Part shown: one piece after another, positions 1,888 through 62,324 of the stretch
How the letters are laid out: each line of letters opens with the position of its first letter
Position numbering within the stretch: the first letter of the stretch is position 1
NCBI GenBank assembly: GCA_021018995.1
Contig: CM037590.1
Coordinates: 100,317,097 to 100,381,096 of the forward strand
From: Chloranthus sessilifolius
Lineage: Eukaryota; Streptophyta; Magnoliopsida; Chloranthales; Chloranthaceae
Direction: 5' to 3'
Length of the DNA: 64,000 nucleotides
Translations under genes and position numbers: made by a program
Notes under the pieces: model-generated
The model's input: only the letters and a program-made list of their open reading frames with translations
Told to the model about the DNA's origin: nothing
Databases searched by the model: none

Positions 1888-2536
1888 TCGATTAATCGAA
1901 ATTCTGTTTCGATTAATCGAAATTCAAAACTAGGTTAAGCCGCATAAAATCGATTAATCGATTTCCCAAATCGATCAATCGAAAGTTAAATTCGATTAAT
2001 CGAAAACATTTCGATTAATCGAAATCGCATCCGTTTAAAAATTTAAGTTTTTGAGCTCACTGGCGCGAGCCAGTCGATTATTCGAAATCCATTTCGATTA
2101 ATCAAAAATTCAAAATCGATTAATCAAAATTGTGTAGTAACTTCTATATTTCCAGAATTCATTAAGTATTCGATTAGTCGAAATCCATTTCGATTAATCA
2201 AAATTTCAAAATCGATTAATCGAAATTCACTTTGATTAATCGAAATCGTCTATCTGACTTCAATTTCTTCCAAGTCCCATAAGTAAATCGATTAATCGAG
2301 ATTCCAGTTCGATTAATCGAAATCCAATATCGATTAATCGATTCTCAAAATCGATTAGTCGATCCCAAATCGATTAATCGAGATTCCAACTCGATCAATC
2401 GAAATTTGCCTTCTATGTATATTCTAACTCTCCTTTCAATTTCCAGTCACTGGTACATGCCAGTCGACTAATCGAACAAAATCGATTAATCGAAATTCCA
2501 AATCGATTAATCGATTTGAAATTCGATTAATCGGTT
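1888..2536. repeat. Island of TCGATTAATCGA words upstream of the accessory ORF
   Basis: About 23 units of TCGATTAATCGA or one-base variants (ATTAGTCG, ATCAATCG, ATTATTCG) sit at irregular 20-40 bp spacing, separated by AAT/CCA-like filler. The word is a perfect palindrome, so the island reads the same on both strands. Two longer hairpins with ACTGG/CCAGT arms and 6-bp loops lie within it (2059-2074 and 2449-2464), each followed by CGA. The same word fills 9231-9893 in the LTR of this element. Spacing is too irregular for a simple tandem satellite. Confidence 0.9.
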
Positions 2537-2754
2537 TTGCCCAATTTCTGCAGAATTTCAATCTCTTTGTTTCTTTGATTTCTTTTGGTAGTTTATGACA
2601 TCAAGTGGTTCATGGTTCCATAAAAATACATACACTTGGTCATATATACACAAGAAGGAAAATATTCCTTTAATCATACAATCGAGCAAAATTTTCATCG
2701 AATTACAAGGATCGTGGAGATTCTACGAACACGTTCGTGGTTTACATTGAATTC

Positions 2755-4215
2755 TCACGTCGTTGGAAACAAGGCTGGATATTGTTCTTTCACATCGGCC
2801 TCTCGTTCCCAAGTAGCCTCTTCTTTAGGATGGTTGTTCCACCGAACAAGCACTAAGGGAATCACTTTAGTGCGCAGTACTTGTTCTTTTCGATCCAAGA
2901 TTTCCACTGGTTCCTCTATCATGCTCATGTCCTCACACATCTCTATAGGTTGCTTTCCTAATACATGAGACGGATCATTCACGTACTTCCTGAGCATCGA
3001 TATGTGGAAAACATTATGTACTCGATCAAACAGCGGTGGTAAACCAATGCGATATGCAACTTCACCTACTCGTCCCAAAATTTCAAATGGTCCAACATAA
3101 CGTGGACTTAACTTCCCTCTCTTGCCAAATCTCATTACACCTTTCATAGGTGATACTTTCACAAACACGTGCTCGCCCACCTTATAGTCGACACTAGTCC
3201 GCTTCATGTCGGCGTAACTTTTCTGTCTACTCTGTGCTGTCTTCAACCTTTCTCTGATAATTTGAACGACGGTAGCGTTATCTTCAAGTAGTTTTGGTCC
3301 TAACACAAACTTTTCACCTGTTTCCTCCCAATTGAGGGGTGACTTGCATCGTCGTCCATATAGAGCTTCATACGGTGCCATGCCAATGCTCGTTTGAAAA
3401 CTGTTATTATATGCGAACTCGAGCATCGGTAGATACTCATCCCAATATCCTTGCATATCAAGCATGCAAGCCCTGAGCATATCTTCTATTACTTGGTTCA
3501 CTCGCTCTGTCTGCCCATCAGTTTGAGGATGGAAAGCTGAACTAAAGTCTAGTCGTGTTCCCATTCCTTCTTGAAATTTCTTCCAAAACTTGGACGTATA
3601 TAGTGGATCACGATCTAAAACTATGCTGCTTGGAATCCCATGTAATCTTACAATCTCCTTCATGTATAGATCTGCCAGTCTTCCTGCTGTATATGTAGTA
3701 TTGTACGGCAAAAAGTGCACTGATTTGGTTAATCGGTCTACGACGACCCAAATGGCATTGTGTCTCTTGGCAGTACAGGGTAATCCAACAATGAAGTCCA
3801 TTGAGATCGATTCCCACTTCCATTCTGGTATTGGTAAAGGTTGCAATAGTCCAGCAGGATGTCTATGATCAACCTTCACTTGTTGACAAGTCAAACACCG
3901 TGACACGTACTCGGCCACGTCTTGCTTCAGTCCTCTCCACCAGTAGTTCTTTTTCAAATCTTGGTACATTTTGGTGCTACCGGGGTGGATAGCATAATTT
4001 GACTTATGGGCCTCATCAAGAATCGTTTGTCTTAGATCGGCATTGTCCGGAATGCAGAGACGGCCTTTAAACAACAAAGAACCATCTTCTTTTACTGAGA
4101 AGTCCGACCTAATGCCTTCACTCACGTCTTGATGAATCTTTGTTAATGTCGGATCTTTCATCTGTAGATCGTGGATATGCTCAAATATCACCGGCTTTCT
4201 TGATATGTTAGCCAA
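2755..4215 (-). CDS. Chromoviral integrase with C-terminal chromodomain-like region
   Basis: An open 486-codon frame with the integrase region of a gypsy polyprotein. Visible features: HHCC zinc-binding residues H70, H77, C107, C110; the DDE core at D140 (ISMDFIVGLP), D201 (VLDRDPLYTS) and E237 (GQTERVNQ); a GPY/F module near residue 375 (RYVGPFEILGRVGEVAYRIG); and a chromodomain-like tail at about 433-483 (EEPVEILDRKEQ, VRWNNHPKEEATWE). This combination is typical of Tekay/Del chromoviruses, whose chromodomains are thought to guide integration into heterochromatin. The start shown is only where the frame opens; the true polyprotein continues from RNase H. This is the best-preserved part of the element. 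Confidence 0.92.
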   Translation of the reverse strand: MANISRKPVIFEHIHDLQMKDPTLTKIHQDVSEGIRSDFSVKEDGSLLFKGRLCIPDNADLRQTILDEAHKSNYAIHPGSTKMYQDLKKNYWWRGLKQDVAEYVSRCLTCQQVKVDHRHPAGLLQPLPIPEWKWESISMDFIVGLPCTAKRHNAIWVVVDRLTKSVHFLPYNTTYTAGRLADLYMKEIVRLHGIPSSIVLDRDPLYTSKFWKKFQEGMGTRLDFSSAFHPQTDGQTERVNQVIEDMLRACMLDMQGYWDEYLPMLEFAYNNSFQTSIGMAPYEALYGRRCKSPLNWEETGEKFVLGPKLLEDNATVVQIIRERLKTAQSRQKSYADMKRTSVDYKVGEHVFVKVSPMKGVMRFGKRGKLSPRYVGPFEILGRVGEVAYRIGLPPLFDRVHNVFHISMLRKYVNDPSHVLGKQPIEMCEDMSMIEEPVEILDRKEQVLRTKVIPLVLVRWNNHPKEEATWEREADVKEQYPALFPTT

Positions 4216-4665
4216 AAGGATCCGGTGTCCTTTGACTCAATATTAGCATCATAGAATGCCGTGTCTTCCAAAAATTTCCATGCATTCCCAAAATCAAAGA
4301 AGCTAATCGAAATGAACCTTTCCGACTCAATGCATCGGCTACTACATTCGCCTTGCGGGATGGTATTGTATGGAGCAATCATAATCCTTGAGAATTCCAT
4401 CCACTGCCTTGTCTCATGTTGAGCTCTTTACGTAAAGCAGATATCGGAGGCTCTTATGATCGGTGAAAATTTCAAAGTCTCACCATACAAGTAATGTCTC
4501 CAAATCTTGATAAAAATGTGCTAGCTCCAAGTCATGCGTCGCGTAATTTTTTTCGTGTTCTTTCTGCTGTCTTGATCCGTAAGCTACCACCTTCTTGTGT
4601 TGGTTGAGTACACATCCAAGGCCATTGTATGACGCGCGTCATCAGTACAGCGTATCCTCCATCGC
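4216..4665 (-). pseudogene. Decayed RNase H segment of the chromoviral pol
   Basis: Between the end of the RT frame (4666) and the INT frame (4215), minus-strand fragments in several frames still read as RNase H: a GYAV-like start, KVVAYGS, a DLELA stretch, FTDHKS and QYHP. Small deletions and stops break it repeatedly. RNase H removes RNA from the RNA:DNA hybrid during reverse transcription, so this damage alone would make the copy dependent on others. Confidence 0.7.
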
Positions 4666-6126
4666 TCAAGTGAGTCTCATTTTGAGTTCTTGAAAACTCT
4701 TCTCGCATGCCTCACTCCACTCAAACCTTGAATCTTTTCGTGTCAGCTTTGTGAGAGGTCCTGATATCTTTGAAAACCCCTCGACGAAACGTCGATAATA
4801 GCCTACTAAGCCCAGAAAACTTCGGACATCGGTCACTGTCCTTGGTTGCTCCCATTTAACTACTGCTTCTATCTTTGCTTGATCCACAGTGACACCATGC
4901 TTTGAGACAACATGTCCCAAAAAGCTAACCTCTTCCAACCAAAACTCACCCTTGCTGAGTTTGGCGTACAATTGGTGTTCACGTAGCGTCTGTAGAGCAA
5001 TCCTCAAATGTTCTTCTTGCTCCGTCTTGGATTTGGAGTATATCAGTATATCATCAACAAACACTACGACGCAGGAGTCCAAGTGTGGTTTAAACACTCG
5101 GTTCATTAGATCCATAAACGACGCCGGAGCATTCGTCAATCCAAACGGCATCACAAGGAATTCATAGTGTCCATACCGTGTCCGAAAAGCTGTCTTCTGA
5201 ATGTCCTCAGCTTTGACTCGCAACTGATGATACCCAGATCTCAGGTCGATCTTAGAAAAATACCTTGCTCCTTGCAGTTGGTCGAATAGATCGTCTATTC
5301 TAGGCAAAGGGTAGCGGTTCTTCACAGTGAGTTTGTTTAATTGTCGATAGTCAATGCATAGCCGCATTGACCCATCCTTTTTCTTGACAAACAAGACCGG
5401 TGCTCCCCATGGAGGCACGCTCGGTCTAACAAACCCCTTGTCCATAAGCTCTTGTAGTTGTTCCTTCAACTCCTTTAACTCAGCGGGAGCCATTCTATAA
5501 GGTGCTTTCGAAATAGGCTCCGTTCCTGGTGCTAAGTCAATGGCGAATTCTACTTCTCTTTCTGGAGGTAATCCAGGCAATTCCTCTGGAAACACGTCAG
5601 CGAAGTCTCGCACAACTGCTATCTCAGAAATGACATTCTTTTCTTCCTTGTCCTCCTTTAAGAAAGCCAAGTATCCACTGCAACCCTTTCTGATCATTTT
5701 CTCGGCCCTTACTGCCGAGATCAGTGGCACAGATGACGACCTCACTCCTTGAAACCGAAATGCTCTTCTTGTGTTGGGTCTGAAAATGACTACCTTATTC
5801 TTACAATCGACGATTGCACAATGCTGCGCCAACCAGTCCATGCCAAGGATCACATCAAACCCTTGCATATCTAACAGTATCAACTTTGCTTCCAATTCAT
5901 GCACCTCTAAGTCTCGAATTGCTACAATGATGGATTTGCAAGCTAACTCCGTGTCTACTAACTCTCCAGTCGGAATAGACACAGATAGGACGAAATCCAA
6001 CGTCTCTGGAACAATCTTCATCTTCTTGGCGAAACGTGGAGTGACGAATGAGTGGGTAGACCCTGGGTCTATCAACACTCGAGCGTCATATCCACCGAAG
6101 CATCCTTTTTCATATATATTTAGAGT
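4666..6126 (-). CDS. Chromoviral protease and reverse transcriptase
   Basis: The open frame runs from 6153 to 4666, but homology starts at about 6126, just after the intron-like segment. The aspartic protease motif is [11 protein letters not shown] (residues 27-36 of the open frame), with Pro where most relatives have Ser or Thr. A typical linker follows ([16 protein letters not shown]), then [12 protein letters not shown]303 in [10 protein letters not shown], the PFGLTNAP motif and the catalytic [10 protein letters not shown] (D367, D368). RT ends with the usual [11 protein letters not shown] region and stops at 4666 where RNase H should continue. It reads in frame with gag only if 6129-6303 is removed. 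Confidence 0.9.
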
Positions 6127-6128
6127 AC

Positions 6129-6303
6129 CTATTTTATACATACATACATACATACAATAATTTACACATCAATTTAAACTCTTAATTCACATACAGCTTT
6201 TTGTATTAGGAAAAAAAATCTATATAATTTCCAATGCATGCTCCTTCTCTATTTAAAATTTTGATGAAATGAAAACTTTCTTTAATTTTTAAAAGGGTCT
6301 CAC
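6129..6303 (-). other. 175-bp intron-like segment at the gag-PR boundary
   Basis: Minus-strand sequence with a strong donor (AAG|GTGAGA at 6304/6303) and acceptor (AAATAG|GTACT at 6129/6128), very A/T rich like plant introns and with no similarity to polyprotein. Length 175 is not a multiple of 3, so unspliced RNA puts gag and PR in different frames. Removal joins codons for DVI, a TAA stop, then GTLN in one frame, matching the usual chromoviral DVxxGTL junction. AGGT occurs at both edges, so an insertion that duplicated AGGT is an alternative origin. Splicing is inferred only. Confidence 0.55.
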
Positions 6304-6304
6304 C

Positions 6305-7682
6305 TTATATGACGTCATGCACGTTCCCTGCTTCCTGAGCAGTGACTGCATAGGCTCTCCCCTGAACGATCGGCTTCCTTGCTTGAATTGGTCGTGGTGC
6401 TGCAACTGAAACCGTCTTTCTCTTATCCGTCTCGGGGCAATCCTTGATCAAGTGGCCCACCTTGCCACATCGGAAACAACCCCTAGTTCCCATTCTACAA
6501 TCCACCGTCCTATGAGGCTTGCCACACTTTGCGCAAGTCTCCCGAGGTGCGGAAGAAACGACGAGAACCCCTGTGGACAAAGGGCGCCAGATGAACATGG
6601 CAGGCTCTCATAGCGAAAAAGGTCTCCGACGCAAGTAATGGAAACCTCTGGTGTTGTTGTTCGCGGTCTTTCCAAACCCTTGAACTGTGGTCTCTGATTC
6701 TGGGCTACGAACCTCGGCTTCTTGTTCACCGGTTCGTAGGCCCTCGTCCTTCCTTGTTCATTTCCTCCTCTCTATTGTTCCCTCTGTCTATATCTATTCG
6801 TATTCTCTTCCTCTACAACCAACGCCTTACTCATGACCTCTTCATAGGTCCTCAGCTGAAATGGAGCTACGCCTCCCCTAACCTCAGGCTTCAAACCTTG
6901 CTGAAACCTCTTGGACTTCATCACTTGATGACGTGAATCCGGAGCAAAACGGGCAAGCCGTAGAAACTCTACCCCATATTCTCTCACTGTCATCCTCCCT
7001 TGTACTAACTGTAGGAATTGTATTTCTAGTTGGTTCCTCACCACTTCTGGAAAATATTGGTTGTTGAACTCCTCAACAAACTCCTCCCAAGTCCAAGGCA
7101 ACTCTGGGGTCTCCTGAGCCCGAGTCCGTATCACGGACTTCCACCAAGGCCCAGCCTCCCCATCCAACATGTAAGCTGCCCATCTCACACTCTCATCTTC
7201 CGTGCAAGTTAGCATGCTAAAGACATTTTCCATCTCCATTAGCCAATTCTCAGCGGCCATTGTGTCTGCCTGCCAGAAAATGAAGGAGGTCTCATCCTCC
7301 TAAACTCTGTAAAAGATGAGGGCACAGGCAATGCAGGTCCTACAGGTGGTGTAGGTGGCTGCTGTTCTCTTGATGCATGAGCTGCAAAGGATGCGGCTTG
7401 CTGTGCCATGGCAGCTGCCATAGTCTCCATAGTGTGCATCAACCTTTGTCACTCTTCTCTGTCCTCTTGTCTTTCTCTCAATCTTTCTTGTTCTCTTAGA
7501 TCTTGATCTTGATGATCTCGATCTTCTTCATCCCGTTGTCTACTACTACTACCCCCTGGGGCCTCAGTACCTCCTAAAGGCACTCTATTAGTAGGAGAGA
7601 TGTAATCATCTCCACTACGTAGACTCCTCTGCTGGCCTCCCCTTGGTCGGCCTCTTCCTCTAGATGACATTTGCGGCTGCAT
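6305..7682 (-). pseudogene. Chromoviral gag with two CCHC knuckles, broken
   Basis: The pieces are 7449-7682 (start MQPQMSSRGRGRPRGG), 7239-7442 (same frame, after an in-frame stop), 6772-7260 (shifted frame, the retrotransposon gag domain with WLMEMENVF, GPWWKSV, FVEEFNNQYFP, EYGVEFLRLARF), 6448-6729 (same frame after a stop) and 6305-6598 (shifted again). The last piece carries CAKCGKPHRTVDC and CFRCGKVGHLIKDC, two nucleocapsid zinc knuckles. Gag packages the RNA in virus-like particles. At least two stops and two frameshifts make it a pseudogene. It ends in TAA directly before the intron-like segment. Confidence 0.85.
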
Positions 7683-7758
7683 TTGAAACTAAAGTTTCGT
7701 TAGCAGAAGCCCCTATGTTCTGACGAAAGAACCCTTGTCAGAATTGCTAAAAGAAAAT

Positions 7759-7772
7759 CGCTTTGATACCAA
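7759..7772 (-). other. Primer binding site, tRNA-iMet type
   Basis: Minus-strand TGGTATCAAAGCG one base inside the LTR end. It matches the 3' end of plant initiator tRNA-Met (TGGTATCAGAGC) apart from one base, the normal primer for chromoviruses. It fixes the LTR boundary at 7774 and the minus orientation. Confidence 0.85.
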
Positions 7773-7773
7773 C

Positions 7774-10470
7774 TGTGACAGCCTGGATTTCGGCACCCCG
7801 AAACTCATGCCATCAGCACGATCATCTTGACCGTGCCCTTTAGCTAAGCACGGAACACTGGAATATCAAGCATCAAAAAGTATAATAACGAAATTGCGGA
7901 ATTTAAATCTATATTAATCAACTCTCCAAAAGACAGTTCTACCCTCATGCCTCTGCATGAATGGAGAACCGATCCGAACCATCGATGATAGAAATCATCA
8001 CGGATGGTTCGTCCCAAAAGAATAATCCCAACTCCTTATATACATGGTTTTAAACAAAATCAAGGCTTGACATACCAAGCCGTACAAAATCCCTCTAAAA
8101 GCCCTCAAAGTGGCACAACGGAGTCCTCTAGAAGAAGTCCTCAGGAGGTGACTCCAATTCTTCGCCGGCCGCAAGGTCCGACTCGCAGGGATCAGCGTCT
8201 CCTGAAGCCTCGGCAGCTGCTAGTAGTGGACCTGCGACGTATAGTCTATAGGGTGAGCTACATCCTAGCTCAATAGGGAACAAACACGGTTGAACATATA
8301 AATTATAACTCACATATATTCCATGATATGCCATGCATGATGTGTCTATGCAGTTATTGATGAAAACAGTTAAAAGCATTTCATTTTACTGTTCATTACT
8401 TATGTTTTCATTTATTCATGAATGATGCTGAAAAGGCCTAAAGCAAAACTTAAACTTTCAACTTAAGTAATCCCCGAGCAATATAGCATCGAGCCCCGAT
8501 GAGATACCCTTCATCGTCATCTATATAGAGCTTTTAACGTATTCCACAGGAATACAAATATAGTACCAAGCCCCTTTCCACAGGGATTGGTGGCGGGTTT
8601 CACTTGTCTCAAATCAACACCCTGGGTGTACTTACTATGTCGGATAAGCCTCACGGCCTACGGTTTTTTTCGCCAGATCGGGTCACGGATATCCCGCCGT
8701 GTCGGGTCGTGGATATCCACGTCACCTATCAAACCTCAAATAACAAAAATATCGGTGCCTTACATATAGTTATTCACCGTGTAAGTGTGCTATCTTATAT
8801 CAGTTAGGCCCTATCAAACATGATTCAATCATTGGATACATCCTTAGGATGTATCCATTTACTTGCATCACACCTGATGCTCTCATCTCTTTACTTCTTC
8901 ATCCCTTGGGGATGGCTCATCATGATTACTCTTATGGATGTCACACACACACACTTTTCACAAATTCTTAAGAAATAAACATTTGAATTGAATTCTATAT
9001 CACTACATACATGCTCTTGTAAAATAAAGTACATGTTCAAGGTGTTCCCTACCTCAAGTCTTCATTTGATCATTGCATCAAGGTCCCACGTGGCTCCTTG
9101 TACACTAGTCCACACGTACCACCTATGGTACCACATAACAGGTGAAACACATCCCAAAGGATGCAATAAAGAAGGTCTAAGACCCTCCAAGAATCTTAAA
9201 GTCAAACTCCAAGGTCAACATAAATTTTCTCAGTCGATTAATCGAACTCCAAAATCGATTAATCGAATCTGATTCGATTAATCGATTTCCAAAATCCATT
9301 AATCGAAAGTCAATATCGATTAATCGATTCTCAAATCGATTAATCGAGATTTTCATTCGATTAATCGAAATGAATTCGATTAATCGAAATTCTCTGTTTC
9401 GCAAAGTCGATTCTCAATTCGAGTAGTCGAGTTTTCATTCGATTAATCGAATCCTAATTCGATTAATCGAAATTCTCAGTTTCGCAAAGTCTTCTCAATT
9501 CGAGTAGTCGAGTTTTCATTCGATTAATCGAATCCTAATTCGATTAATCGAAATTCTCGGGCCATAAAGTCGATTCTCGATTCGGTAGTCGAGTTCTTAA
9601 AATCGATTATTCGATCCCAAATCGATTAATCCAAAATTGAAATCGATTAATGGAAATCCCATTTCGATTAGTCGATTTCCTCAAGTCCTTTCCTCCAACC
9701 CCCGGGTCCTTTGGAGGTTCCAATGATTAATCGATACCCAAATCGATCAATCGAAATCCCAGGTCGATTAATCAAACTCCAATTCGATTAATCGAAATCG
9801 GGGTCTTCTGACCTTTCAACTTCCTGGCCAATTTCGATTAATCGAAACCCAATTTCGATTAATCGAAACCCAATTTCGATTAATCGAAATTGTCAGATTC
9901 AGCCCCTTTCGAGCTGTTCTTCTCAATCTTCTTCCATACTTTTTCCTCTATTTTTCTAAGCCATTATCCTATGATTCTAACCATTTTCAACTACAACTTA
10001 GCCTCTATGATCTATGTATTTTATTCACAAAAATTTTTACCTTGAATCAATCTCAAATTGATTTCAAATCAAATGGTTGGAAGGCTAGGGTCCCAGCTTT
10101 GCTTTTAGCGGATCCCTCGCGTTGAATCCGACATTTATTGCTCGAATCTCCCTTCCTCAACTAGCATTTACTCCTCTCTTTACTTCCTCTCTCTCTCTCT
10201 TCTTTACTTCTCTCTCAACCACCAAAAACACACATTTAGGGTTATTAAACCCTTTTATCCCTTTCCTCACTTGTGTGTTGAGCACCTACACAGCGATAGG
10301 TGTATGCGACTTCACATTTACAACACACACCACGTGGGCATTCAATTTATCACATCCCATCCGTTCATCACACCTCATGCTAACTATTGGACTTTCATTT
10401 GGTCAAACCTATGACCGATCGGGCACGGATCCTGAGGTTATAGTTTAGCGTGATTTTTCGGGCTATTACA
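7774..10470 (-). repeat. 5' LTR of the chromovirus (2697 bp)
   Basis: On the minus strand it begins TGTAATAGCCCGAAAAATC (10470) and ends GGCTGTCACA (7774), the usual TGT...ACA ends of Tekay LTRs. It contains a 26-unit TCGATTAATCGA island (9231-9893). Inside that, a block of about 78 bp is duplicated in tandem (about 9404-9480 and 9483-9560). A region with repeated ATCGGG/GGATATCC-like text lies at 8640-8740. The matching 3' LTR lies outside the window. Right flank at 10471 is GCTGT; the left copy of any target duplication cannot be seen. Confidence 0.85.
9231..9893. repeat. Island of TCGATTAATCGA words inside the chromoviral LTR
   Basis: About 26 units of the same palindromic word as at 1888-2536, with variants such as TTCGAGTAGTCGA. 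Irregular 20-35 bp spacing. On the minus strand the island lies in the upstream half of the LTR, where plant LTR promoters usually sit. Confidence 0.9.
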
Positions 10471-12722: not shown

Positions 12723-12730
12723 AGTTTTTG

Positions 12731-17662: not shown

Positions 17663-17668
17663 AGTTTT

Positions 17669-50736: not shown

Positions 50737-50769
<33 letters not shown>

Positions 50770-51426: not shown

Positions 51427-51492
51427 TGCCACACCCCCAAACTTATGAGGAGCAGTGTCCTCACTGCTTGAAATACAAAGGGATGTGCAGCA
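51427..51492 (-). other. Internal PPT-like block (copy 3)
   Basis: Minus strand: CTGCACATCCC, GTGAGGACACTGCTCCTC, AGTTTGGGGGTGTGGC. Best example of the GAGGA-CACTGC-TCCTC stem. It follows the accessory ORF by about 280 bp. Confidence 0.6.
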
Positions 51493-51769
51493 TGAGAAAA
51501 ACAGAGACAGAGAAGCAAGGAAAGCAAAACAAATAAACTATAGCTAAACAAAGAATATCAATGCACAAACAAAACAAGAACCAGTAGGAAACACAGAACT
51601 AATGACAAGAAAGCAGACAATAAAGTAGAAAGAAAGAAAGAAAAGCACAGTAACTAGACAAAAGAGAAATTTATTGATAATACAAAAAGATGGAGAAAAA
51701 TACAAAAGAAATCTAAGCAACTCTAGAAAGCCTATAAAACCAGGTAAAAATCCTAAACACAAACTAAAA

Positions 51770-54455
51770 CTACTCAGAGTTAGAGTCAGAGTCAGTGGTG
51801 AAGAAGTTAGCGAATCCTTGTTTAGCAGCATAAGCTTTTAACATAGCTCTCCTCTTAGCCTTGGTCTGCGCTATAGTAGCTACCTCCTTAGACTGGGTAG
51901 TTGTCTCCTCTTTGATTTGTAGGGCAGGCTCAGTGGCTTGGGCAGGCTGGCCAGCAGTTAAGTGAGCAATTTTTCTTTCAAAGATTTCAATCTTCTTATC
52001 AAACAGTGCAACTTGAGTGTCATACAATTCCTGGGCTGCCTTGTTGTGAGCTTTGGAGACAGCCAACCTCTCCTCTAATCCATCAGCTCTTGATTTCTTA
52101 GAGGCAGAAATGAGCTTTCTAACTTCATAGTGGAGTAAAATTCTTTGGCAGCCCTTGGATATCTGCATCATCTCATAGTTGTAGTCCACAGTCATTTGCT
52201 TGATCTTTGCTTCATAGGGCATCTCAATTGATCTGCGGAGGGCAGCCATTCCTCGCACAACATCCCTTTTGAGGTAAGGATTCTGTTGCATGACATGGAG
52301 GAGAGTGGAGTATGGAGGGGGGTGGGGAAAAGAGGAGGCAGGGAGTATGGACTAAGGAAATTGAAATTTAAGAATTGGGTAGGTTGAGGTTGGGGTTGGG
52401 ATTAGGTCCTCCACATCTATGGCAGCATCAGAGGTAGCTACCAAAGGTGGGAGATTAGGTTGGGATTGTGGGAGGATGATTGGCAGAGGTAAGGGAATGA
52501 TGGGAGGTTGGATAGGGTCAGGCTGGGGTCCTGGTTCAGGTTCAGCTTGAGTAGAGTTATCGGTGTAGGTAGGAGGAGTGATGGCTGGTTGTTGGGGAGG
52601 TTGGGTTAAAAGTGTCAAGATGGAGTGGATGACTTGGAGGCTAGTTGGCAAGGAGGATTGACTTTAGAGTGTGGAGTTCATGGGTTGGAGTGTGGCCTTA
52701 ATTGATGATTGGGTTTGGGTGTTGGCCATCACTTGGGATTGGAGGGCAAGTAATAGGTTGAGGATATGGGATAAAGGGTCAGGTGTGACAGGGGTTGTGG
52801 GTTGGATTGGTGGAATAGGTTGGAAAGAGGGAGTGTGAGTATGGGTAAAAGGTGCGGTGGGTGAGGTGTGTAAATGGGTAGGCTATGGAGAATCTGGTAG
52901 TGGGGTGTACTCATGCCCAATATTGTCCACACTGGACTTTATTAGAGATGAATAACCCTCATTAGAGATCTGGGCTTGGGTATGTGGAGGTGAGATGGAG
53001 AAAATGGGGTCAAATTCAAAGGGAATGGATGGAGGGGAAGAAGTGGCTGGGCCAACTGATGAAGCTGGTGTAGGGCTCAAAGGTGGAGTGGCTAATATGG
53101 ATGGGCTGGCTGGAATGGTGAGTGAAGGTAAGGTAGGGATTGGGTTAATGGGAAAAGGGGCAGATATAGATGTGGATGTGGTGATGGTGGAAAGAGAAGC
53201 TGAGGTGCTGGAGGGTATGAAAACTGAAATGGAAGGCAAAGGAAATGAGGTGGATGGTAGACAGGCTGATGGGATAAAGAAACTAGGGATACCAATTAGG
53301 ATGGAGGGGATGACTGCAGATGCTGAGAGAATTAAAGGAGTAGCTACAGAGCTGGCCATTTAAGGTGCCTCCCTTTCAGGACTCAGCAGATTTACTCTTG
53401 CTTTTTCCAATCAGAGTCCTACTAGCTGACCAAGCCCTCTTCCCAAAAACTTTAGGGGTCACCTTTATCACTGGCTCATCTATTGAACACAAAATTCTTT
53501 CTCTTTAGCAAGGCAGTGATGAGCCTGCTGTGAGGGAGCCCAGGTAGGGGTTGAGACTTCCTACACTGGTCATTCACATCCACCATGGCCTCAAACACCA
53601 AATGAGCAACATTTATGAATTTGCCCTTGGAGAAGAAATATAGGGCATCCACTATTGGCACTCTCCTCTCTTGTTGGTGCCCACTCACATAGATATTTTT
53701 CCTTTAAATTGAATCAAAGAAATGCATGTTGGGGTGTAAATCTCTTCTCATAATTGACTCCCCAGTCCCCATAATGCCTTGAGTGAGGTGCCTAGCCATT
53801 GCTTTGAAAGGCCTAGTCTCAAGCTCAGGCAATCCATAGGATGGATCAAACATAGAGGGGACTCCAAGAACTAATCCTATATCTCTGTAGTCCACCACCA
53901 TCTCCACATGATCAATTAAAATGACAAGGCAGGGCTCAATTGAATTTGGCTTGGTTTGTTTCCTAAGATTCTGATACCACAACTTAACCAGGCTTGAGTA
54001 AGATTTTTCATTCAGTGGGCTCAACATGGGAGTTAGGCCTGCCTTCACCAAATAATTCAAAGTGTCTTGACACTCCTCTACCTTAGAGCAATAGGGGGTG
54101 TCAACAATAGTCTCTAAGATCACACCTAATGCATCCACAAATTCATTGAGTGTGGATATGAGCAGAGGGACTTCAGGCTCCAATTTAGGGTTAGGCTCAG
54201 CCTCAGGAATTTCAGGCACTAGGTTAGGTTGTGTCTCAGGGGTCTCCTCCACAATGTCTGCACTGACTTGGGCCTTCTTAGATTTCTTGGCCTTCTTGGT
54301 TTTGATAGTTTTCTCAGCTTCATCCATGACAAGCTTCCTTTTTACAGGTAGGTTTCCTTAGGCTTTGTGGTTTGCCTACTGGACTTCTTAGTGGCTTTAG
54401 TGGCAGATTTAGAAGGCACTTTGAAAAGATTAGCCAAGGTATCCTCTTGACCAGC
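51770..54455 (-). pseudogene. Accessory ORF of family C (plant-transposon domain protein)
   Basis: Lys-rich N-terminus (SATKATKKSS and, after a frameshift near 54330, KTKKAKKSKKAQ). The domain 54327-53476 is in one frame with a single stop near 53700: YLVKAGLTPMLSPL, SSLVKLWYQNLRK, RRDLHPNMHFFD, QERRVPIVDALYF, HSRLITALLKR. The linker 53359-52352 is Ser/Pro/Thr-rich in two frames with NSTQAE, cognate to ISTQTE in family B. The C-terminus 52291-51770 is open for 173 codons, helical (EAKIKQMTVDYNYEMM, DKKIEIFERKIAHL), ending acidic (FFTTDSDSNSE). About 850 residues in total. No enzyme motif is visible. Breaks are few compared with the family-B copy. The start codon is uncertain. Confidence 0.78.
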
Positions 54456-54834
54456 TATTACTCAATCAACACAATATCAATCACCACTAATTCAATAGCA
54501 ATCACCACAAATACCTCTTGAATGCTCAAATGACCCAGACAAACTAAAGATTGAAATGCCAAGCTTGGAAATCACAAAGAGGAGCTTAAAAGAAGCCTTA
54601 CCAATAGAAGACTAGGGTTTCTCAGATCACGCTGTGCAAGACGCCAAATCAACTCAGACTAGGTGCAAAATGTAGCCCTGAAGAAATTAAAGTAGTTAGA
54701 GTAGTGGCAACATGTTTAGAGTAGCAACCAGTGAAGTAGAGAGAGAAAAATAAAAATGGATAGATCGCCAGAGAAGCCTTAGAGCTTAGAGAGAAGCTGT
54801 CGAATGGCAAAAGTAGAGTTGTCGTTAGGTTAAA

Positions 54835-55215
54835 AACAATGGGGAATGAGCTTCGACAGGATTGGGGCAAGTCGTCGATAGGTTGATGCATCCTGTCGAG
54901 AAGTGCAAAGTGATAGACCCTCGCGAGAGGTCCACACAATCCTGTTGACAAGTTCAAGAAGATAGAAGCCAGCTTTTCGAGAGGTTCAAGGTTGCAAAGA
55001 GGATCATTTTGAGAGGTTCAAGAACCTCTCAACAGGTACTTTAAATCCAACACGTAAACCTCTCGATAAGTGTTCTGATCCTCTCGATAATCAACTTTAC
55101 AGCTTCAGAACCTATCGAGAATTAATTTACACCTCTCGACAACTTCTAGAACTTGTTGAAATGAAAATTGGGAACTCTCAGAACCTATTGACATGTTCAA
55201 GGAACCTATCGACAG
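54835..55215. repeat. CTCGACAGGTT word island upstream of the family-C accessory ORF
   Basis: About 16 words such as CCTGTCGAGAAG, CCTCTCGATAAG, CCTATCGACAGG between the end of the protease remnant and the accessory ORF. Same vocabulary as in the LTRs of this element. The 380 bp between island and domain start contain no clear TATA box; CCATTTTTATTTTTC (minus, about 54745-54760) is the nearest A/T stretch. Confidence 0.85.
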
Positions 55216-55458
55216 GTTGTATTTCAGTTAGAACAAGCTTATACTCAGTTCCCAGTTCATTCCCCAACAGATTTGACACTCCAACTCTATTCACTTCACA
55301 ACTTTGACTCATTTTCCTACCTGAGGTACTAACACACATGGCAAATTTATGTCCAATACCACATAGAATTGAAACAAAAACAAAAAACATCAGCAAATAT
55401 AAATAACCAAAGACATAAGTTATTATACATAGTATACATTTGTTGAAGCTTAGTCATG

Positions 55459-57990
55459 TCATGGAGGTTCATGATAGCGGATGGTCAGTACAGGCTCGAC
55501 CACATTTTCAAAAACATCACCAACATTGTCACAAAGATCATTGCAATGCAGTAACTTGGGTAAAGTTCCTTCCACAAGTTTATCCAATACATCAATTGAA
55601 AAATAGTGCTCCTTATTCAAATGAGGTGGATGGGCTGCATCATACACATTCAACTTAACTTTCATATTGCCAAAAGTTACCTCCATTTCCCTTGATCTAT
55701 ATTGTAGACATGCATTTGCAGTGGCAAAAAATGGCCTGCCCAAGATCACAAGAATGGAGGTAGCACACTTACATGGTTCCATATCTAGCATAAGAAAATA
55801 AGCTAGATAAAAGAATTTATCAACTCCAACTAACACATCCTCTATCATTCCCACAGGCTTCCTTTTAGATCTGTCGGCTAGTTGTAGCACCACATGTGTG
55901 GGATTCAATTCAGCCAGCCCTAATTTCTCATAAACAAAATATGGAAGTAGGTTTACAATAGCTCCCAGATCTAATAAGGCCTTCTAATTAGTATGATCGC
56001 CAATGATGCAGGGGATTGTAGGCACTCCAAGGTCTTGATGCTTGGTTGGGATTGCAATAGACAACACTTGGTTCACCTTTTCAGCTGAAAAGACCTCCTT
56101 GGATAAATGTATCCTAGACTATCTTTTGTGGGTGCACAATTCTTTTAAAATTTTTACATAGGCTGGAACTTGTTTGATGGCATCAAATAAAGGCAAGTTG
56201 ATCTTTACTTGTTTGAAAGTTTTCATCATTTCCTCAACCTTAGCATTCCCCTTGTCAAAAGGAGAAACTGCTTTCAATGCATTAGGAAATGGCAAATGAG
56301 GAACTGTCCTCCCAGCTGCAGCCTTAGCAAGTTCATCTGAATTTTCTTTATTTTTATTTTTAATTTCCTGTTGGGGTACATCACCCCCCTTATTTTTATA
56401 TGCTGCTCCTGCTGTATATTTTCATGGGTTGTTTCTTCATTTTCTTCACTTGACTCATCAGGCTCAATACAAACTTTTTTATCCACCAGCTTCCCACTCC
56501 TCAAGGTGGTGACAAATTTTACTTCCTCATGGGAAGGAGTCTCACCAACCATGTACTGCCCCTTTAGATTGTTCATGGGTTGGGCAGTCTCCCCTCTTCT
56601 CTCCTAGCTAAAGAATTAGATAGCTGACCAAGGTGGTCCTCTATCTTCTTGATGCTTTGACTGTGGGAGTTAATAGTTTGAGATAAAGGGCCCAAATTCT
56701 ATAGTGAAGCCAGAAGTTGCTCTTCAAATGTGAGGGACCTAGAGGGTGCTGGGGCTGGTGCACTTTAATGCACAGGTTGAACCATTGGTTGGACCATAGG
56801 TTGTTGGTATTGGGGCCTTGGAAAATAATTCTGCTGGTATGGCTGGGCATTCCTATAGGGCATGGACTTTAGTGGCTGTTGCTGCTGCTTTTGAAAATTA
56901 TCTTGTCTCTACCTCAAGTTGGGGTGGTTTCTCTAATGATAGCCAGCAGTAGACTGTTGTCCATAGGACTGAGCAGCATTCACATGTTCCATCATAAAAT
57001 CTGAAAATTGGGCAGCTGAGAGACAATCCTCAAGGGAGTGAGTGGGGGATTGGCATATGACACATGCCTCCTCCACTTTAGCAGCCATTGGAGACTGCAC
57101 TGCTCCCATGAGCTTATCAAACTTTTGGGTCAAGCTGTCCACTTTCCTCTCCAAATCATTATGTCTACTCACCTCATATATTTTCCCTCTGGTAGTATTT
57201 TCTCTCACCAATCTAGGGGTCTCAACATCTCTTGCCCAGGTCTCCCTTTGCATTGAGTTTTCACCGATGATATCAAATAACTCCCAAGCCTCATTTGTTG
57301 TCTTGTGGAGGAATGTATCACCATAAGAGGCATCAACCATATCCTTGCTTTTATGATTAATTCCTTGATAGAAACTTTGGACAAGTTGCCATTCAGGAAT
57401 TTGGTGATGAGGACATTGCTTCAAGAGTTCTTTAAATCTCTCCCAGGCTTGGTGAAAGTCTTCAGTTGGGGCTTGAGCAAATGAAATAATGATCTTCCTC
57501 AGCTGACTTGTTTTAAACATGGGGAAAATTTTGGCTAAAAATTGATATTGAAGATCATTCCAAGACTGAATACTGTTGGGTGGGAGCATTGACAACCATG
57601 TTCTGGCTCTATCCTTTAGTGAAAAAGAAAAGAGTCTCAACTTGGTTGCTTCCTCCCCCAAACCTATAATATTGAAGGTAGTACACAGTCTTAAAAATTC
57701 ATCAATATGCTTGTATGGGTCTTCTTTGCTCAGGCCATGGTATGAGAGTAACATCTGTATGATAGAAGATTTGATCTCATAGTTCCCTTGGACAACAAGA
57801 AATTGAATGCAGAAGGGAGAATTATAAACCCCTGGTGCATTGATATCCTTTAAAGTCTTAGGTTGCTCACCCATTAAAGCAATTTCAGAATCAACTAAAT
57901 GTGTGTGTATGGTTTTCTTAGGTCTAAGAAGTCTTTCAACTTCAAGATCTAAGGGAGCAATCTCAGGATTAAGAGATCACCTCCCAAGCA
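55459..57990 (-). pseudogene. Athila-type gag and protease of family C
   Basis: gag probably starts at about 57990 (MLGR then TGA, where family B has MHGRR) and is open from 57874 to 56933: INAPGVYNSPFCIQF, HIDEFLRLCTTFNIIGLGEE, WLSMLPPNSIQSWNDLQ, FHQAWERFKELLKQCPHHQI, VDASYGDTFLHK. An intact CCHC knuckle reads CVICQSPTHSLEDC. A Gln/Pro stretch and LRSGKLVDKK follow (56274-56576), then a decayed part and the protease end 55459-55908 (VVLQLADRSKRKPVGMIEDV, VILGRPFFATANACLQYRS). It stops at the edge of the word island; RT is absent. A pol deletion just after PR defines this non-autonomous type. Confidence 0.85.
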
Positions 57991-58454
57991 TACACAGCAG
58001 AAACCAAATTCAAAGCAAAAAATCACAGCACAAAATTCAATCAAAATAATCATAAAATACACAACTAATGTTGCAGATCTACAAAGCTACAGATCTAGAA
58101 ATATAAATAGAGTTAGGAAATGCAAACTTAAGCAAAGCTTGCTCCTCCAATTGGTACAATGCTCTCTTCAACACCATAGATCCAGATCTGAAACAGACAA
58201 TTAAACTATAAAAAACTACAACAGCAACTGTTGAGAACTGGAAAATACCATTTTTCACCCCTTAATCTGGGCCTTGATAGACCCTTGAGAGAACTAAATA
58301 AGTGTTTTAAGTGTTTGTTTTACATCTAACAATAAAGGTAGGCTTAACCTTGAAAGTAGCTCAAAAGTGCCAAAAAGATGACATTCCATGTCAATCCAAA
58401 AGAAGAAGAAGAAGAAACAACCTCACTAGCTGTTGAAAGGTCCGAATTGAAGAG

Positions 58455-58745
58455 GCAAAGACGTGGTCTCAACCCAGAAAAGAAGTATGGAGCAATTCAA
58501 TGAAAAATGCACTCTGATAGTACTTTTCAGAAAGAACCCGAACTGCTCAAAGAACCCAAACGCGAAAAGAACAAAACCTGTGCTTAGCTTTCAAGAGCAT
58601 CCGAACTCTTCAAGAGGTGATTTACCTTTTCAAAAGAAGAAAACTCAATTCAATGTAACCGTAACCTTGCGAAAAGAGCTCAGAGTTACAACACCTTGCG
58701 AAAAGCCCCCTAAACTTTACGAAAAGGTATTCTGGAGGTTCTCAG
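58455..58745. repeat. GCGAAAAG word island in solo LTR F
   Basis: About 8-10 words such as CTTGCGAAAAG, ACGCGAAAAG, TTACGAAAAGG and CTTTTCAAAAG. Fewer units and looser than the other islands. Confidence 0.55.
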
Positions 58746-58940
58746 CTTTTGCAAGGGCAATTTAGTAATCTATTTCACGCGTCCCAATGCATTTAAAAAC
58801 CTAGGGACATTCCAGAGAATTCTAAGCATAAAGCGAAGGCATATTCCACCCCACGTGAGCACCCAGAGATGAAATAACTTGGCGAGAACTTCTAGAAACT
58901 CTAACAGATTGCATAACAGAATTGATGCCTTTTTCACCTG

Positions 58941-59082
58941 ATTGGCTGAACCAGATCGAGGAATTCTGATTGGCCAGAACAGATCTGGATCCTCGTGCTC
59001 GACCACCATTGGTCAATACAGATCTGAGAACCTCTGATTGGTTGATACACATCTGAGCTGGACTTGGGGAAAACTATAAATA
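58941..59082 (+). promoter_or_regulatory. LTR F promoter: four CCAAT-type boxes and a TATA box
   Basis: ATTGG at 58941, 58969, 59008 and 59037 (spacing 28, 39 and 29 bp), then TATAAATA at 59075-59082. The island lies just upstream. A textbook plant core promoter layout; the family-C LTR has ATTGG/CCAAT boxes in a similar place (about 61032, 61208, 61278). Confidence 0.65.
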
Positions 59083-60161
59083 GATGAACCATTTGCCCAA
59101 TTGGGGCATCCAGATTTTGAGTTTCATTCCTATTCCCTCATTTCCAAATCAGATAGTTTGTCTGAAATCCCTGTAATAGCTTCACTTTGACTTGCAATTG
59201 AGAGCTGTGAGATATTTCTGTAATTCAAAAGAGAGTTGTATTCAAGACTACAAATCTGAGAGCTGTTTAAACTGTGCTCTGTAATTGTAATGGTGGATTC
59301 GAACAGGTTGTTGTAAACCGTATATTCTCAATTGGACTCATGTTAAGGGTTTCCTCTGATCTCCTTATTGCATTAGACTCCTTTAGATTTACTGTTTTTC
59401 ATGTAATTTCCCTTGATTCATTAATCCTGTGAGAATTAGTGTTGGTAACCTAATCTCTCACGGCATTTGTAGTGATGCTTCTTGTTCTAAACTAAGGCTT
59501 TGGATTAAAGACTATTGGATGGTTTGTGGCCATTAAAGTGGACAGACCATAGCCATAAGCTTAAACCTAATCCTTAAATTAGATTTATTTCTCTTACATC
59601 TGCACTTGTAGCCAGATGAAGATTGGATCATCTCTCAGTTGAGTTGCAGTCATTCTCATTAGTTTTCAAGGACCAAATCAAAGTTAGATATTACTTCTCC
59701 ATTTTTTGTATAAGTTTACCTCAAACGCTTCCCCAACTCAGATCTGGATCACTTAGTTTAATCTTTACTTTTATCATTTAGTTAATGTGACAAATTCAAC
59801 CTCCCATCTTATGTGCTTTGTAGATAGGATCAGAGGTCAGATCTGGTAGCTCAGATCTAGAGGTTTATCTTGCATTTTAGACAAATTCTCTGTGGACGAT
59901 CTTTCACTCACTTACATTTAAAACTTGCTACAATTGGCCCTGATCTTGCAGGCTAATTCACTTCTACCTGTGCTGATATTTCTTTACTCTTTATATTCTA
60001 GATTCAGTATAATTTAGCAGTAACAAACCTGTTTTCAAAACACACATAAATCACGCACACTAAGAAGCAACAACAGCAACTAGTCAAACACTTAACAAGC
60101 AATTAAAACTAAACATCTAGAAATGAGAAAAACTTAGATCTACCACTTTTAAAAACACAGG

Positions 60162-60179
60162 TCCCCGACAGCGGCGCCA
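60162..60179 (-). other. Primer binding site of family C, tRNA-Asp type
   Basis: Minus-strand TGGCGCCGCTGTCGGGGA, six bases after the LTR end. It differs from the usual TGGCGCCGTTGCCGGGGA at two positions. Confidence 0.8.
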
Positions 60180-60185
60180 AAAACT

Positions 60186-62324
60186 TGTTGTCTTGCCTGC
60201 CTCACAATTATTAAGGGGTTAAAACAGTGAACTACAACAAAAATGGTCTTAAGGTAAACAGGTAGTCCTGTAAGATCCAGGGCTGTTGCAATAAGTTTTG
60301 ATAGGTAAGGGTATGTCCATGGGAAAATGTGTTCTAAAGGATGGTAAATCTCCAGATCTATGGTAGATCTAGTACTCTATCCTAAATTAAGCTAAACTCA
60401 AAGCAGGAAGGAGGAGAGGTTTCTAGGGTTTGTCACTTTACTACAGCTATAAAAATTAAATGCTATTGATCCAGACTTGATTAAACACAGATATGAAAAA
60501 ACAAAAATAAAGTGAAACTCAAAAGCTGGAGAACAACAGTTAGGGGTTTTGGTCTTTTACTGAAAATTAAAGGAATCAAAGGCAGTGCATAGGATAGCTT
60601 TGCTACAATCCTATATTTGGCTACAAGCTCCCCATTTCTGGCATATGCAAGGTATAAGAATCCAATCTTGACCAAAGAATTGAAGCAATCCTAAGGCTAT
60701 GATCTATCCTCTTTAATGGTCACACACCATCCCGGAGATTGTTCCACTCCAAGGATCTTGATTAGAATAGGAAAGCTATTACAGATGCTGTGAATGTTAG
60801 GCTACCAGATCCCCATTTCTAGCTGGCATCCACAGGAATATCTAACCCAAGGAAATCAAATACGAAAAAGTTAAATATAGATCAGAATCACCTTTAAAAT
60901 CTATAATTATATTGCAATCATAAAACTTACAATCCTATTATGCTCAGATCTGTAATCTGTGTAACATACAATCCTTTACAAGCCTCTGAAACTCTCAATT
61001 TATAACTCTAGACCTCACCCTAACTACTGAAAAGAGTTTAGCCAATCATGATTGGCTAGAGAGAGAATGGGAGAAGAAGGAAGAGAGAGGGAGTTTGGAG
61101 AAGATGAATCTGGAATTAGGCTTTGGTTCTCTTGAATTCTGGATTGTTGTTCTGTATTTTCTTCAAGCTTTTATACTGTCCTCCTCTGTCCTTAGATTTG
61201 TTTAAGCCAATCAGAGTGCAAGGGAATAATTATGTTATGCTGACGTGGCTGATTTCTATTCTAGAAGCTCTGCTCTCATTGGCTCTCAACTGAAAAATAT
61301 ACATGAAGTAGTTAGGGTTTCCATTCGTGCCCATCTATGTGCCAAAAATACTCCCAGGGGTCGCTAACGTGCTTTGGAACTCATGCACAAAACTCTGGAA
61401 TTGGCAGTTGTTGAGGAAAGAAAGCAGAGAAGTTGCCAGTTCGATTGGTGAGAGGTTCAAGGAACTTCTCAACAGGTTCTCTTTCTACTTTATATTCACA
61501 TCGATAGGTTGCATTGGCTTTCGACAGCTTCCCAAACTTCTCGACAGGATTGAAGTAGCTAGTCGACAGGTTTGGCAACATCTCGACAAGACTGGGAGTA
61601 GCACTCAATAAGATTGGAAACTAAATTAATCATGCTGTCTAGTTCTGCATTCATCCTGTAGATAGGTTATAATCAACCTGTCGACTTGTTATACAATTCA
61701 CCACTGAGTTCTCGACAGGTTGTCTTGGACTGCTCGACAAGTTCTATCATCCTCTCGATCTCTTCATTATTTCACACTCAGAACCTCTCGACAAGTGTGG
61801 GAGAGCTCTCGACAGCTTCTTTATCTCAAGGTTCCTCTTGACAAGATCCATATCTGTACTTCCAACCTCTCGATAGCCACTGGAATCCTCTCGGTAGCTT
61901 AAGTTACCCTCTTGACTGCTTCATTCCTTGCTCTCAGAACTTCTCGACAGTTCTGCTTTGTGCTTCCACAACTGGCACACATCTCTAGTATGCTGGTCTT
62001 CATTTGTTACACTCAGCCACCGCTTGATAGGATTCATTCCTCATTCCTTGCACTGCACTCAGCCTCAAGCATTCCCAGTTGAGCTTAAGCTAATCTCATG
62101 AACTTCCAAGGCTCTGTGGAGTGCTTGATTGGCTGGCCTTTGAGCTATAAGGTCACATGTTGAGCAGCAAATTGCTTCTTTGGCTCTTTTAAGTGGAAGT
62201 CTGTATTAAGCTTACAATTTATTGCTTAACTATAAAATATGCTCAAAACACATTATTAGTCAGCTCAAGGGTCTAACAAAGGTTAGGTTAGGAGGTGAAA
62301 AATGATATTTTTCACTGCTTAACT
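60186..62324 (-). repeat. 5' LTR of family C (2139 bp)
   Basis: Minus-strand start at 62324 (AGTTAAGCAGTG, first base changed from T) and end GGCAAGACAACA at 60186. Word island 61440-61985 (CTCGACAGG), then on the minus strand TATAAAAGC at 61167-61176 (GTATAAAAGCTTGAAG). It differs from 47657-49801 by scattered transitions. Confidence 0.88.

Follow-up and report, generated by a model that had tools for sequence, protein, structure and literature searches.

Each of three retrotransposon families (A, B and C) in the 64,000-nucleotide stretch of Chloranthus sessilifolius DNA analysed here (the window) carries two arrays of one family-specific short word, one in the long terminal repeat (LTR) and one before a 3′ accessory ORF (aORF). 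The arrays are candidate sites for a double-stranded DNA-binding protein, and we judge it fairly probable that such a protein reads them, most likely the aORF product acting in a VANC-like manner. From the organization of the sequence we infer that a protein binds, that the aORF protein is the binder, and that its effect is activation or anti-silencing.

The islands placed in A, B and C by the original prediction proved real. An unbiased 7-mer scan (424 windows) flagged those of A and C where expected, and those of B, whose words are too degenerate for such a scan, were recovered by word density and motif discovery. Element A lies on the minus strand. Its 5′ LTR (7785–10466, ends read) is 95.5% identical to the 3′ LTR at L018:5121-7803, so that not all copies are decayed. 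The LTR island (9234–9887) holds 25 sites of TCGATTAATCGA at ≤3 mismatches and the pre-aORF island (1888–2534) holds 23, both identified by 7-mer scan, motif discovery and held-out test; at ≤2 mismatches, 48 of the 49 window-wide matches fall inside these two islands. A TATA box directly downstream of the second island (1866–1878, pattern search) precedes the aORF (92–1650, Pfam and reading), which has PF20167 (Transposase_32) similarity. Its ATG was read at 1650, and the frame is broken between about 1553 and 1492, the listed ORF being 92–1471. Pfam also identified protease and RT (4669–6168) and an integrase with a chromodomain (2758–4236; PF00385, 1.8e-05; score 25.0 bits, cut-off 25.1). 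A is thus a chromodomain-bearing Ty3/gypsy element, probably a chromovirus of the Tekay type.

Family B was represented by three LTRs, found by LTR comparison: copy 1 (10470–12730, plus strand), whose first 424 bases lie on the other side of element A (L018:4682-5105), copy 2 (15284–17670, plus) and copy 3 (34790–37461, minus). Their islands of AACTNCGCGA, on the same strands, span 10480–10930, 15600–16180 and 36560–37145. Also on the plus strand are gag (17953–18948, Pfam), the pre-aORF island pre1 (19780–20125) with a TATA box, CTCTATAAAC, read by eye at its end (20111–20120), and a broken aORF (20467–23286, Pfam and reading) with a PF20167 stretch at 20924–21334. These islands were identified by word density, motif discovery and held-out test; a further one, pre2 (28740–29165, plus; motif discovery and held-out test), follows the integrase (27423–28154) of a pol-bearing B element. 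Element C, on the minus strand, is bounded by 5′ and 3′ LTRs (60187–62323 and 47658–49800, LTR comparison) that are 90.6% identical. Its word, TCGANAGGTT, forms islands at 61430–61990 (spacings 20–22, 29–33 and 55) and 48900–49430 in the LTRs, and at 54810–55230 before the aORF, all by 7-mer scan, motif discovery and held-out test. The aORF (51760–54357) is broken, and protein alignment showed 53707–54357 to be homologous to the B and A aORFs; gag lies at 56936–57976 (Pfam). Within element C sits LTR F (58229–60060, plus; LTR comparison and motif discovery), with a weak island of a ACTTTNCG-type word at 58500–58900 and a TATA box at 59075. A looser island expected in LTR D was dropped: its self-trained motif reached 15.4/kb in LTR D alone, and its word formed no cluster of four.

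Motif discovery performed separately on LTR and pre-aORF islands returned the same motif in each of A, B and C, as had been anticipated. In a held-out test, the motif was learned in a family's LTR island only and then scored on the pre-aORF island. Densities were 34.8/kb for A, 17.4–20.3/kb (pre1) and 18.8–21.2/kb (pre2) for B, and 47.6 and 54.8/kb for C, compared with 0.2–0.9/kb in the remainder of the window (13 matrices). All LTR-to-pre densities (17–55 sites/kb overall) exceeded every one of 6476 non-homologous null pairs from 60 random training windows, for which the maximum was 11.1/kb. Once the words were masked, comparing LTR with pre-aORF islands by blastn in A, B and C produced nothing better than E = 0.028; a pair of true LTR copies still aligned, at 1e-46, under the same masking. 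Two further families, G and H, came from flanking DNA that had been retrieved regardless of words; after masking, a 14-bp residual match between LTR and pre-aORF islands remained in G (E = 0.001). A pre-aORF island copied from the LTR is thus unsupported in A, B, C and H.

The words might instead have arisen from satellite seeds by neutral tandem amplification, gene conversion having exchanged them between the LTR and the interior of the element. The A arrays do contain tandem blocks (their periods include 81, 102 and 118 bp), array length differs between copies, and Retand, in the part of that source considered here, has tandem repeats that are family-specific and of no assigned function (PMC11963269). 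Tandem arrays were absent from the B islands, however, and C islands held one, of 2.1 copies. C sites occur in both orientations with flanking letters near background, the masked islands are not alignable, and the words are kept in a diverged A sibling whose LTR DNA is 69–74% identical. An ordinary tandem satellite is therefore rejected for B and C and is partly true of array growth in A; as a general account it is highly improbable.

Spacing provided further evidence. The sites had been described as irregularly spaced at 15–40 bp, but in A and C the distances fall close to multiples of 10.5 bp, most of them around 21, 31.5 or 42 bp, which correspond to whole helical turns; in B this tendency is weak. 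Phase at 10.5 bp gave R = 0.84 for C_LTR1 (smooth-null p < 5e-5), R = 0.73 for C_pre (p = 4e-4), and R = 0.82 and 0.76 for word centres in the A islands; none of 80 random windows reached 0.73 (maximum 0.55). When half-sites were used rather than palindrome centres, phasing in A_LTR was not significant (p = 0.13). For B, the pooled p was 0.009, made up of B_LTR3 (0.012), B_LTR2 (0.076), B_pre1 (0.27) and B_pre2 (0.78). Genome C-word pairs, among the 100 matches listed, peaked at 21 bp (35), 32 bp (17) and 42 bp (6) with R = 0.75; these include nested and related copies, and not all are independent.

Palindromy, which had been thought common among the words, holds for TCGATTAATCGA of A and not for the B and C motifs, which are asymmetric and present in both orientations. 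The G and H words are also palindromic. Palindromes in A, G and H would suit words acting in RNA, through hairpins, dimerisation or packaging, and the best-fitting periods of 10.25 to 11 bp are compatible with A-form RNA (about 11). The non-palindromic B and C words, occurring in both orientations, do not fit such a role, to which we assign only a very slight chance.

CpG content itself could be the point of the islands, through methylation-dependent control, nucleosome placement or siRNA decoys. The observed/expected ratio is 0.58–2.85 in the A, B and C islands against 0.02–0.09 in three B and C coding stretches; in element C, 48 of 83 CpGs fall within 1513 of 12,834 bp. CpG positions also change more than others. 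Within the words, nevertheless, many letters outside CpG are as constant as CpG itself, in A nearly all, and an unassigned element at 38.6 kb in the window (a Pfam scan of two of its pieces gave nothing useful) carries an 8-wide motif, GCTANCTT, without CpG, though C often precedes it. CpG clustering for methylation control, as originally proposed, is thus improbable as the primary cause. CpG decay between LTR copies was high within the islands too, so the copies concerned have probably undergone methylation since they inserted.

The words recur across the whole genome (2.17 Gb). Exact matches to the A word number 241,617 (55 for the reversed control), so that an A-word reader would have a very large target set, and a C-word pair occurs 38,236 times (control, 38). 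Of the C-type loci that were fetched, four had an aORF, and in all four the cluster lay between integrase and aORF; these loci were chosen by word matches, and only cluster position is independent. Ten flank loci (L018–L023 and L038–L041) were fetched regardless of words. Three of them (L019, L020 and L041) contained aORF relatives by tblastn, and all three had a same-word array both directly upstream of the aORF and in an LTR-like repeat. One A-type copy (L009/L010) had an aORF with no island before it. Families G and H showed the LTR and pre-aORF pairing of the window families; their words differ in flanks, GT versus TT, around a common core, GATCGATC, and within each family the LTR and pre-aORF words are the same. 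The proposal of clustered protein-binding sites is strongly supported by the occurrence of one word at two non-alignable places, the A and C phasing, the B and C orientations and this recurrence.

LTRs often bear host transcription factor sites; CGCG boxes resemble CAMTA sites, and TGTC words resemble ARF sites. Each family could have brought a host factor of its own to its two promoters, and some islands do lie upstream of TATA boxes. We consider this unlikely, though worth weighing: a co-evolving, element-encoded reader better fits arrays of 6–25 sites, near-identical but distinct G and H words kept apart by family, and related motifs in B, C and F.

With a null keeping the CGA triplet, motif likeness was p = 0.01–0.02 for B–C, 0/2000 for B–F and 0.0005 for C–F; the p-values are uncorrected over 21 comparisons, and the B–C likeness alone would therefore fail correction. 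C matrices scored on B islands gave ≤3.4/kb. The A motif showed no relation to B, C or F (p = 0.39–0.86). The view that the families share no sequence thus stands for the A motif; for B, C and F, unrelatedness is rejected on motif likeness, and the three aORFs are homologous (B–C 3e-21, A–C 9e-13, A–B 3e-13). Convergent design, as first suggested, is accordingly only partly right, since homologous aORFs together with related Athila-type words fit descent with diverging specificity better. Athila elements are marked by long LTRs, an Asp-type PBS behind the LTR and an aORF that follows pol; B and C may belong to this lineage, and PBS-like stretches were read near 17670 (B) and 60180 (C).

PF20167 scores were 5.7e-07 (30 bits) for A and 1.2e-04 (22.5 bits) for B, both below the Pfam gathering score of 45; the C aORF had no match to this profile and aligns to that of B at 3e-21. 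An alignment search found seven relatives, four named as Camellia sinensis, with PF20167 in two of the seven, while two single-query protein searches found none. An NCBIfam scan gave chance-level matches only, Pfam scans gave no match to DUF1985 (VANC), and no PDB sequence match was found. An AF2 model from 10 sequences had low confidence (pLDDT 57.0; 39.6 with three sequences) and no Foldseek match in the PDB at E 0.001. To our knowledge, PF20167 is not among known DNA-binding domains.

TATA boxes follow several pre-aORF islands. In A the box directly after the island is also present in the diverged sibling L011; that of B_pre1 (CTATAAAC), seen by eye, was missed by the TATA pattern, and relative L041 has one too. 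Within 700 bp after the island, the pattern had no match for C_pre, B_LTR2, B_pre1 or B_pre2, and a single match, at 698 bp, for the LTR A island. The pre-aORF array would resemble an internal promoter of the aORF, paired with an LTR array of the same word lying upstream of the LTR TATA where one is found. We suggest that a sequence-specific double-stranded DNA-binding protein may occupy the words, always on the same side of the helix given the whole-turn spacing; neighbouring molecules could then cooperate, and dense arrays would be favoured. The aORF product, of the PF20167 family, would switch on its own promoter and the LTR or relieve them of silencing, and the sites that it prefers would change along with the family word, as in VANC of VANDAL. 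We put at about even the chances that LTR retrotransposons of two lineages carry such a self-encoded circuit, a counterpart of VANC/VANDAL in which a PF20167 aORF protein cooperatively reads phased arrays, counters silencing family by family and co-diverges in specificity with its word.

In En/Spm, too, an element-encoded protein, TnpA, reads clustered short motifs and affects methylation; En/Spm is a CACTA DNA transposon, with sites at the element ends that are needed for transposition. The binding sites of VANC21 and VANC6 are short motifs packed densely into non-coding regions; they differ between related families, and those of VANC21 are reported in one orientation (PMC5735166), whereas B and C sites occur in both. 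The Arabidopsis VANDAL system shares with ours dense family-specific words in non-coding parts, read there by an accessory protein and here, we propose, by the aORF protein. VANDAL is a Mutator-like DNA transposon with a VANA transposase, and its VANC is a DUF1985 anti-silencing protein that binds the motif and removes DNA methylation, whereas the present elements have the LTR-retrotransposon set of gag, RT and integrase together with a PF20167 aORF. Two arrays, in LTR and before the aORF, with helical phasing, are also unlike VANDAL. Retand, as far as the consulted part of the source goes, likewise has an extra ORF, and repeats particular to each family lie between its pol and 3′ LTR (PMC11963269). 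Its aORF (TRP28), with predicted DNA-binding capacity, is antisense and PF04195, in contrast to the sense PF20167 aORF here, and in that part neither an LTR array nor a common word is connected with its repeats. Sunflower Athila also has a sense aORF, which is similar to PF20167 and for which a nuclear signal is predicted; the portion of that paper considered neither describes word arrays nor assigns an aORF function (PMC11728184). A literature search found no account of LTR and pre-aORF pairing, in agreement with the original prediction.

If true, the proposal would give a concrete job to an aORF family that Pfam names 'putative plant transposon protein', and possibly account for family-by-family silencing escape by abundant LTR retrotransposons. 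It would predict one word and one reader per family, and is hence testable.

The window, 64 kb of contig C7 in a 2.17-Gb assembly, is made up of nested LTR retrotransposons. Element A, a chromodomain-bearing Ty3/gypsy element on the minus strand, runs in the order LTR (7785-10466), gag, protease-RT, integrase with chromodomain and accessory ORF (aORF). Its 3′ LTR lies just beyond the window edge (L018:5121-7803, in an adjoining locus) and is 95.5% identical to the 5′ LTR; A is thus a full-length, fairly young insertion. It splits a family B LTR into two pieces (L018:4682-5105 and window 10470 onward). The putatively Athila-type family B is represented in the window by three LTR copies, an element with gag, island and aORF (15284-23286), and a piece with pol (from 23625). 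The LTRs of element C (47658-62323), also putatively Athila-type, are 90.6% identical, and only 232 bp separate the end of its protease frame from its island, leaving no room there for RT and integrase. In two B-type copies (L041 2548-9162 and window 15284-23286), pol was not found between LTR and aORF; both keep the LTR, gag or a gag-sized gap, the island and the aORF. Window 12839-15276 is an inverted copy of 17659-19980 (B LTR end, gag and pre-aORF region), head to head beside LTR copy 2. Inverted repeats 86-87% alike flank element C on both sides (62329-62542, 63462-63676, 47499-47654 and 63678-63833), and may represent a foldback element that C inserted into.

The original prediction was that each family fills its LTR and the stretch before its aORF with its own short word. 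This observation is right, and the arrangement is more general and more ordered than had been seen. Islands of A and C stood out when 424 windows were compared with their dinucleotide shuffles, and those of B were detected by word density and by motif discovery. When each island was analysed on its own, motif discovery returned ATTAATCGAATT for A, AACTNCGCGA for B and TCGANAGGTT for C, with the same motif from the LTR island as from the pre-aORF island in all three families. Motifs trained in one compartment and counted in the other gave 13.8 (first pre-aORF island of B to second LTR island) to 71.1 sites/kb (A, pre-aORF to LTR), above the null maximum of 11.1 sites/kb (6476 non-homologous window pairs, 60 random training windows); in the remaining window they gave 0.2-0.9 sites/kb. 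The islands are not due to chance. Between families, three of five B matrices matched C islands at 7.1-19.0 sites/kb, the lower values lying within the null range, and the matrix from LTR F matched them at 10.7-23.8 sites/kb; C matrices on B islands gave at most 3.4 sites/kb.

Unmasked, the LTR and pre-aORF islands aligned through their words (A, 1e-29; C, 1e-07). With words masked, blastn of LTR against pre-aORF islands in A, B and C gave no match better than E 0.028, while two C LTR copies, likewise masked, still aligned at 1e-46. The two pre-aORF islands of B showed a weak alignment before masking (54 bp, E 2.8e-06) that was lost after it (E 0.74). The two islands of one family have the word in common and little besides.

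Across the genome, TCGATTAATCGA occurred at 241,617 exact sites, against 55 for the reversed control, and AACCTNTCGA pairs numbered 19,264 + 18,972 (control, 22 + 16). In nine A-type loci picked by word matches (L009-L017, some overlapping or adjoining), the island lay between the two LTR parts in 9/9. Two A-type elements among them carried an A-like aORF. One (L011/L012; LTR DNA 69-74% identical to that of A) carried an island in the stretch from integrase to aORF, with a TATA box after it; the other (L009/L010) had no island before the aORF and also lacked the second half of integrase. Of six C-type loci picked likewise, two (L032, L037) were LTR-type, and all four with an aORF (L033-L036; aORF pieces 52-76% identical) had an array between integrase and aORF. 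In a further relative, L014, roughly four GCTCGCGCGAGC-like words were seen by eye before the aORF, together with a TATA box; the words fell short of the cluster threshold.

Ten loci adjoining the window were taken irrespective of words (L018-L023, L038-L041). Three contained aORF relatives by tblastn (L019, L020, L041), and in 3/3 an array stood immediately upstream and its word recurred within an LTR-like repeat. Two belong to further families: G, with GTGATCGATCAC arrays at L019:8390-8785, L020:5090-5270 and L020:7842-8200, and H, with TTGATCGATCAA arrays at L019:1624-1912, L019:4457-4597 and L021:2044-2331. The outer arrays sit in direct repeats, taken as LTR pairs (G, 2.4 kb, 94%; H, 2.2 kb, 91%). 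With words masked, a 14-bp LTR/pre-aORF match was left over in G (E 0.001) and none in H. Both words contain the core GATCGATC; the two flanking letters were GT in G (39/54 LTR and 12/16 pre-aORF half-sites) and TT in H (33/34 and 8/8). The difference between the families had p=2e-17 for the LTR arrays and p=4e-5 for the pre-aORF arrays; these values are too small, since the half-sites within a palindrome depend on each other, as do the two LTRs of an element. The third locus, L041, has an array (2883-3438) in a 79% identical LTR and a second (7441-7818) upstream of a TATA box and of an aORF with 76% identity across 114 residues; since the region aligns with the first pre-aORF island of B, it is another B copy and no separate family.

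The original prediction described the spacing as irregular. This did not hold for A and C, whose sites are spaced by helical turns. In C (LTR1 and pre-aORF islands, not alignable once masked), neighbour distances were 20-22 bp in 19/32 cases and 29-34 in 10/32, the remainder being 27, 52 and 54, with sites in both orientations (11/9 and 7/7). Periodicity at 10.5 bp was strong (R 0.84 and 0.73; smooth-null p <5e-5 and 4e-4); R 0.73 was reached by 0/80 random windows (maximum 0.55). Word centres in A were 18-22 bp apart in 36/46 cases (otherwise 41, 41, 43, 50, 54, 56, 59, 63, 63 and 73), with R 0.82 and 0.76; with half-sites instead of centres, the LTR island was not significant (p 0.13) and the pre-aORF island gave p 0.016. 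Phasing in B was weak (pooled p 0.009; LTR3, 0.012; LTR2, 0.076) and not significant in its two pre-aORF islands. Among the first 100 same-orientation C pairs listed genome-wide (permitted distance 15-45 bp), spacings were 21 (35), 32 (17), 22 (8), 20 (6), 42 (6) and elsewhere (28), with R 0.75, or 0.61 when thinned to one value per spacing per Mb (n=57). The best-fitting period was 10.25 to 11 for C, A by centres and the genome list.

All three window aORFs are homologous to one another (B-C, 3e-21; A-C, 9e-13; A-B, 3e-13), with relatives in Camellia sinensis. Those of A and B matched PF20167 (Transposase_32), both under the gathering score, and those of B and C have lysine-rich N-terminal stretches by inspection. 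A sunflower Athila PF20167 aORF has a predicted nuclear signal, according to PMC11728184. TATA-like boxes lay 2 bp past the pre-aORF island of A, at the end of the first such island of B (read from sequence), and 170-255 bp past the LTR islands of B1, B3, C1, C2 and F, with B1 also at 73 bp. LTR A had a single match, 698 bp past its island, and no match fell within 700 bp past the LTR2 and second pre-aORF islands of B or the pre-aORF island of C. Single matches are weak evidence at a density of about 1.7 such boxes per kb and strand; recurrence (A pre-aORF island and L011; first B pre-aORF island and L041) is stronger.

The paired arrays are best explained as sites for a cooperative dsDNA-binding protein, which would occupy the words in both: one word stands at two unrelated places, it agrees within each family and drifts from one family to the next, and in the clearest families sites lie on one helix face in either orientation. 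The natural candidate for the reader of the words is the product of the homologous aORF that follows the second array, which would bind them and may act as an anti-silencing factor. The analogy is with VANC21 and VANC6, whose targets are densely repeated short motifs in the non-coding parts of their own families (PMC5735166, PMC10398659). The overall mechanism is likely, its protein step being a prediction. We found no description of a paired LTR and pre-aORF array in the open-licence literature, an absence that is weak evidence, subscription papers being mostly outside its scope. PMC12844716 does not decide whether Athila and Tork have ORFs that modulate their epigenetic state, and PMC7264820 (a review) and PMC11963269 deal with aORFs and tandem repeats without known function.

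CpG observed/expected was 0.58-2.85 in the A, B and C islands and 0.02-0.09 in the gag genes of both B and C and in the B-family RT. B and C coding stretches were nearly CpG-free (17953-18948, 26109-27107 and 56936-57976), much of the remaining CpG lying within islands; in element C, 48/83 CpG fall in the 12% of its length formed by islands. Between LTR copies, CpG positions differed in 23-42% and other positions in 8-10%, inside and outside islands alike; these copies were probably methylated.

Further features were noted. At 38605-38842, a GCTANCTT-type array of 12 sites 19-21 bp apart lies in a further element, near a minus-strand frame (37924-38208); its motif had no significant similarity to the others. 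Clusters of the word CTATCTTA occur in the left flank as well (L023 7801-8550 and 9451-9900). A host gene remnant is possible, by eye, at 42000-45250, within which frame 44710-45069 had no Pfam match. The solo, Tekay-like LTR D (31066-33490) carries CGCTCGAGCG-like words in a 215-bp tandem duplication, and an array of AAGCGACAACGCTTC-like palindromes (L039 1200-1650) adjoins a C-type LTR.
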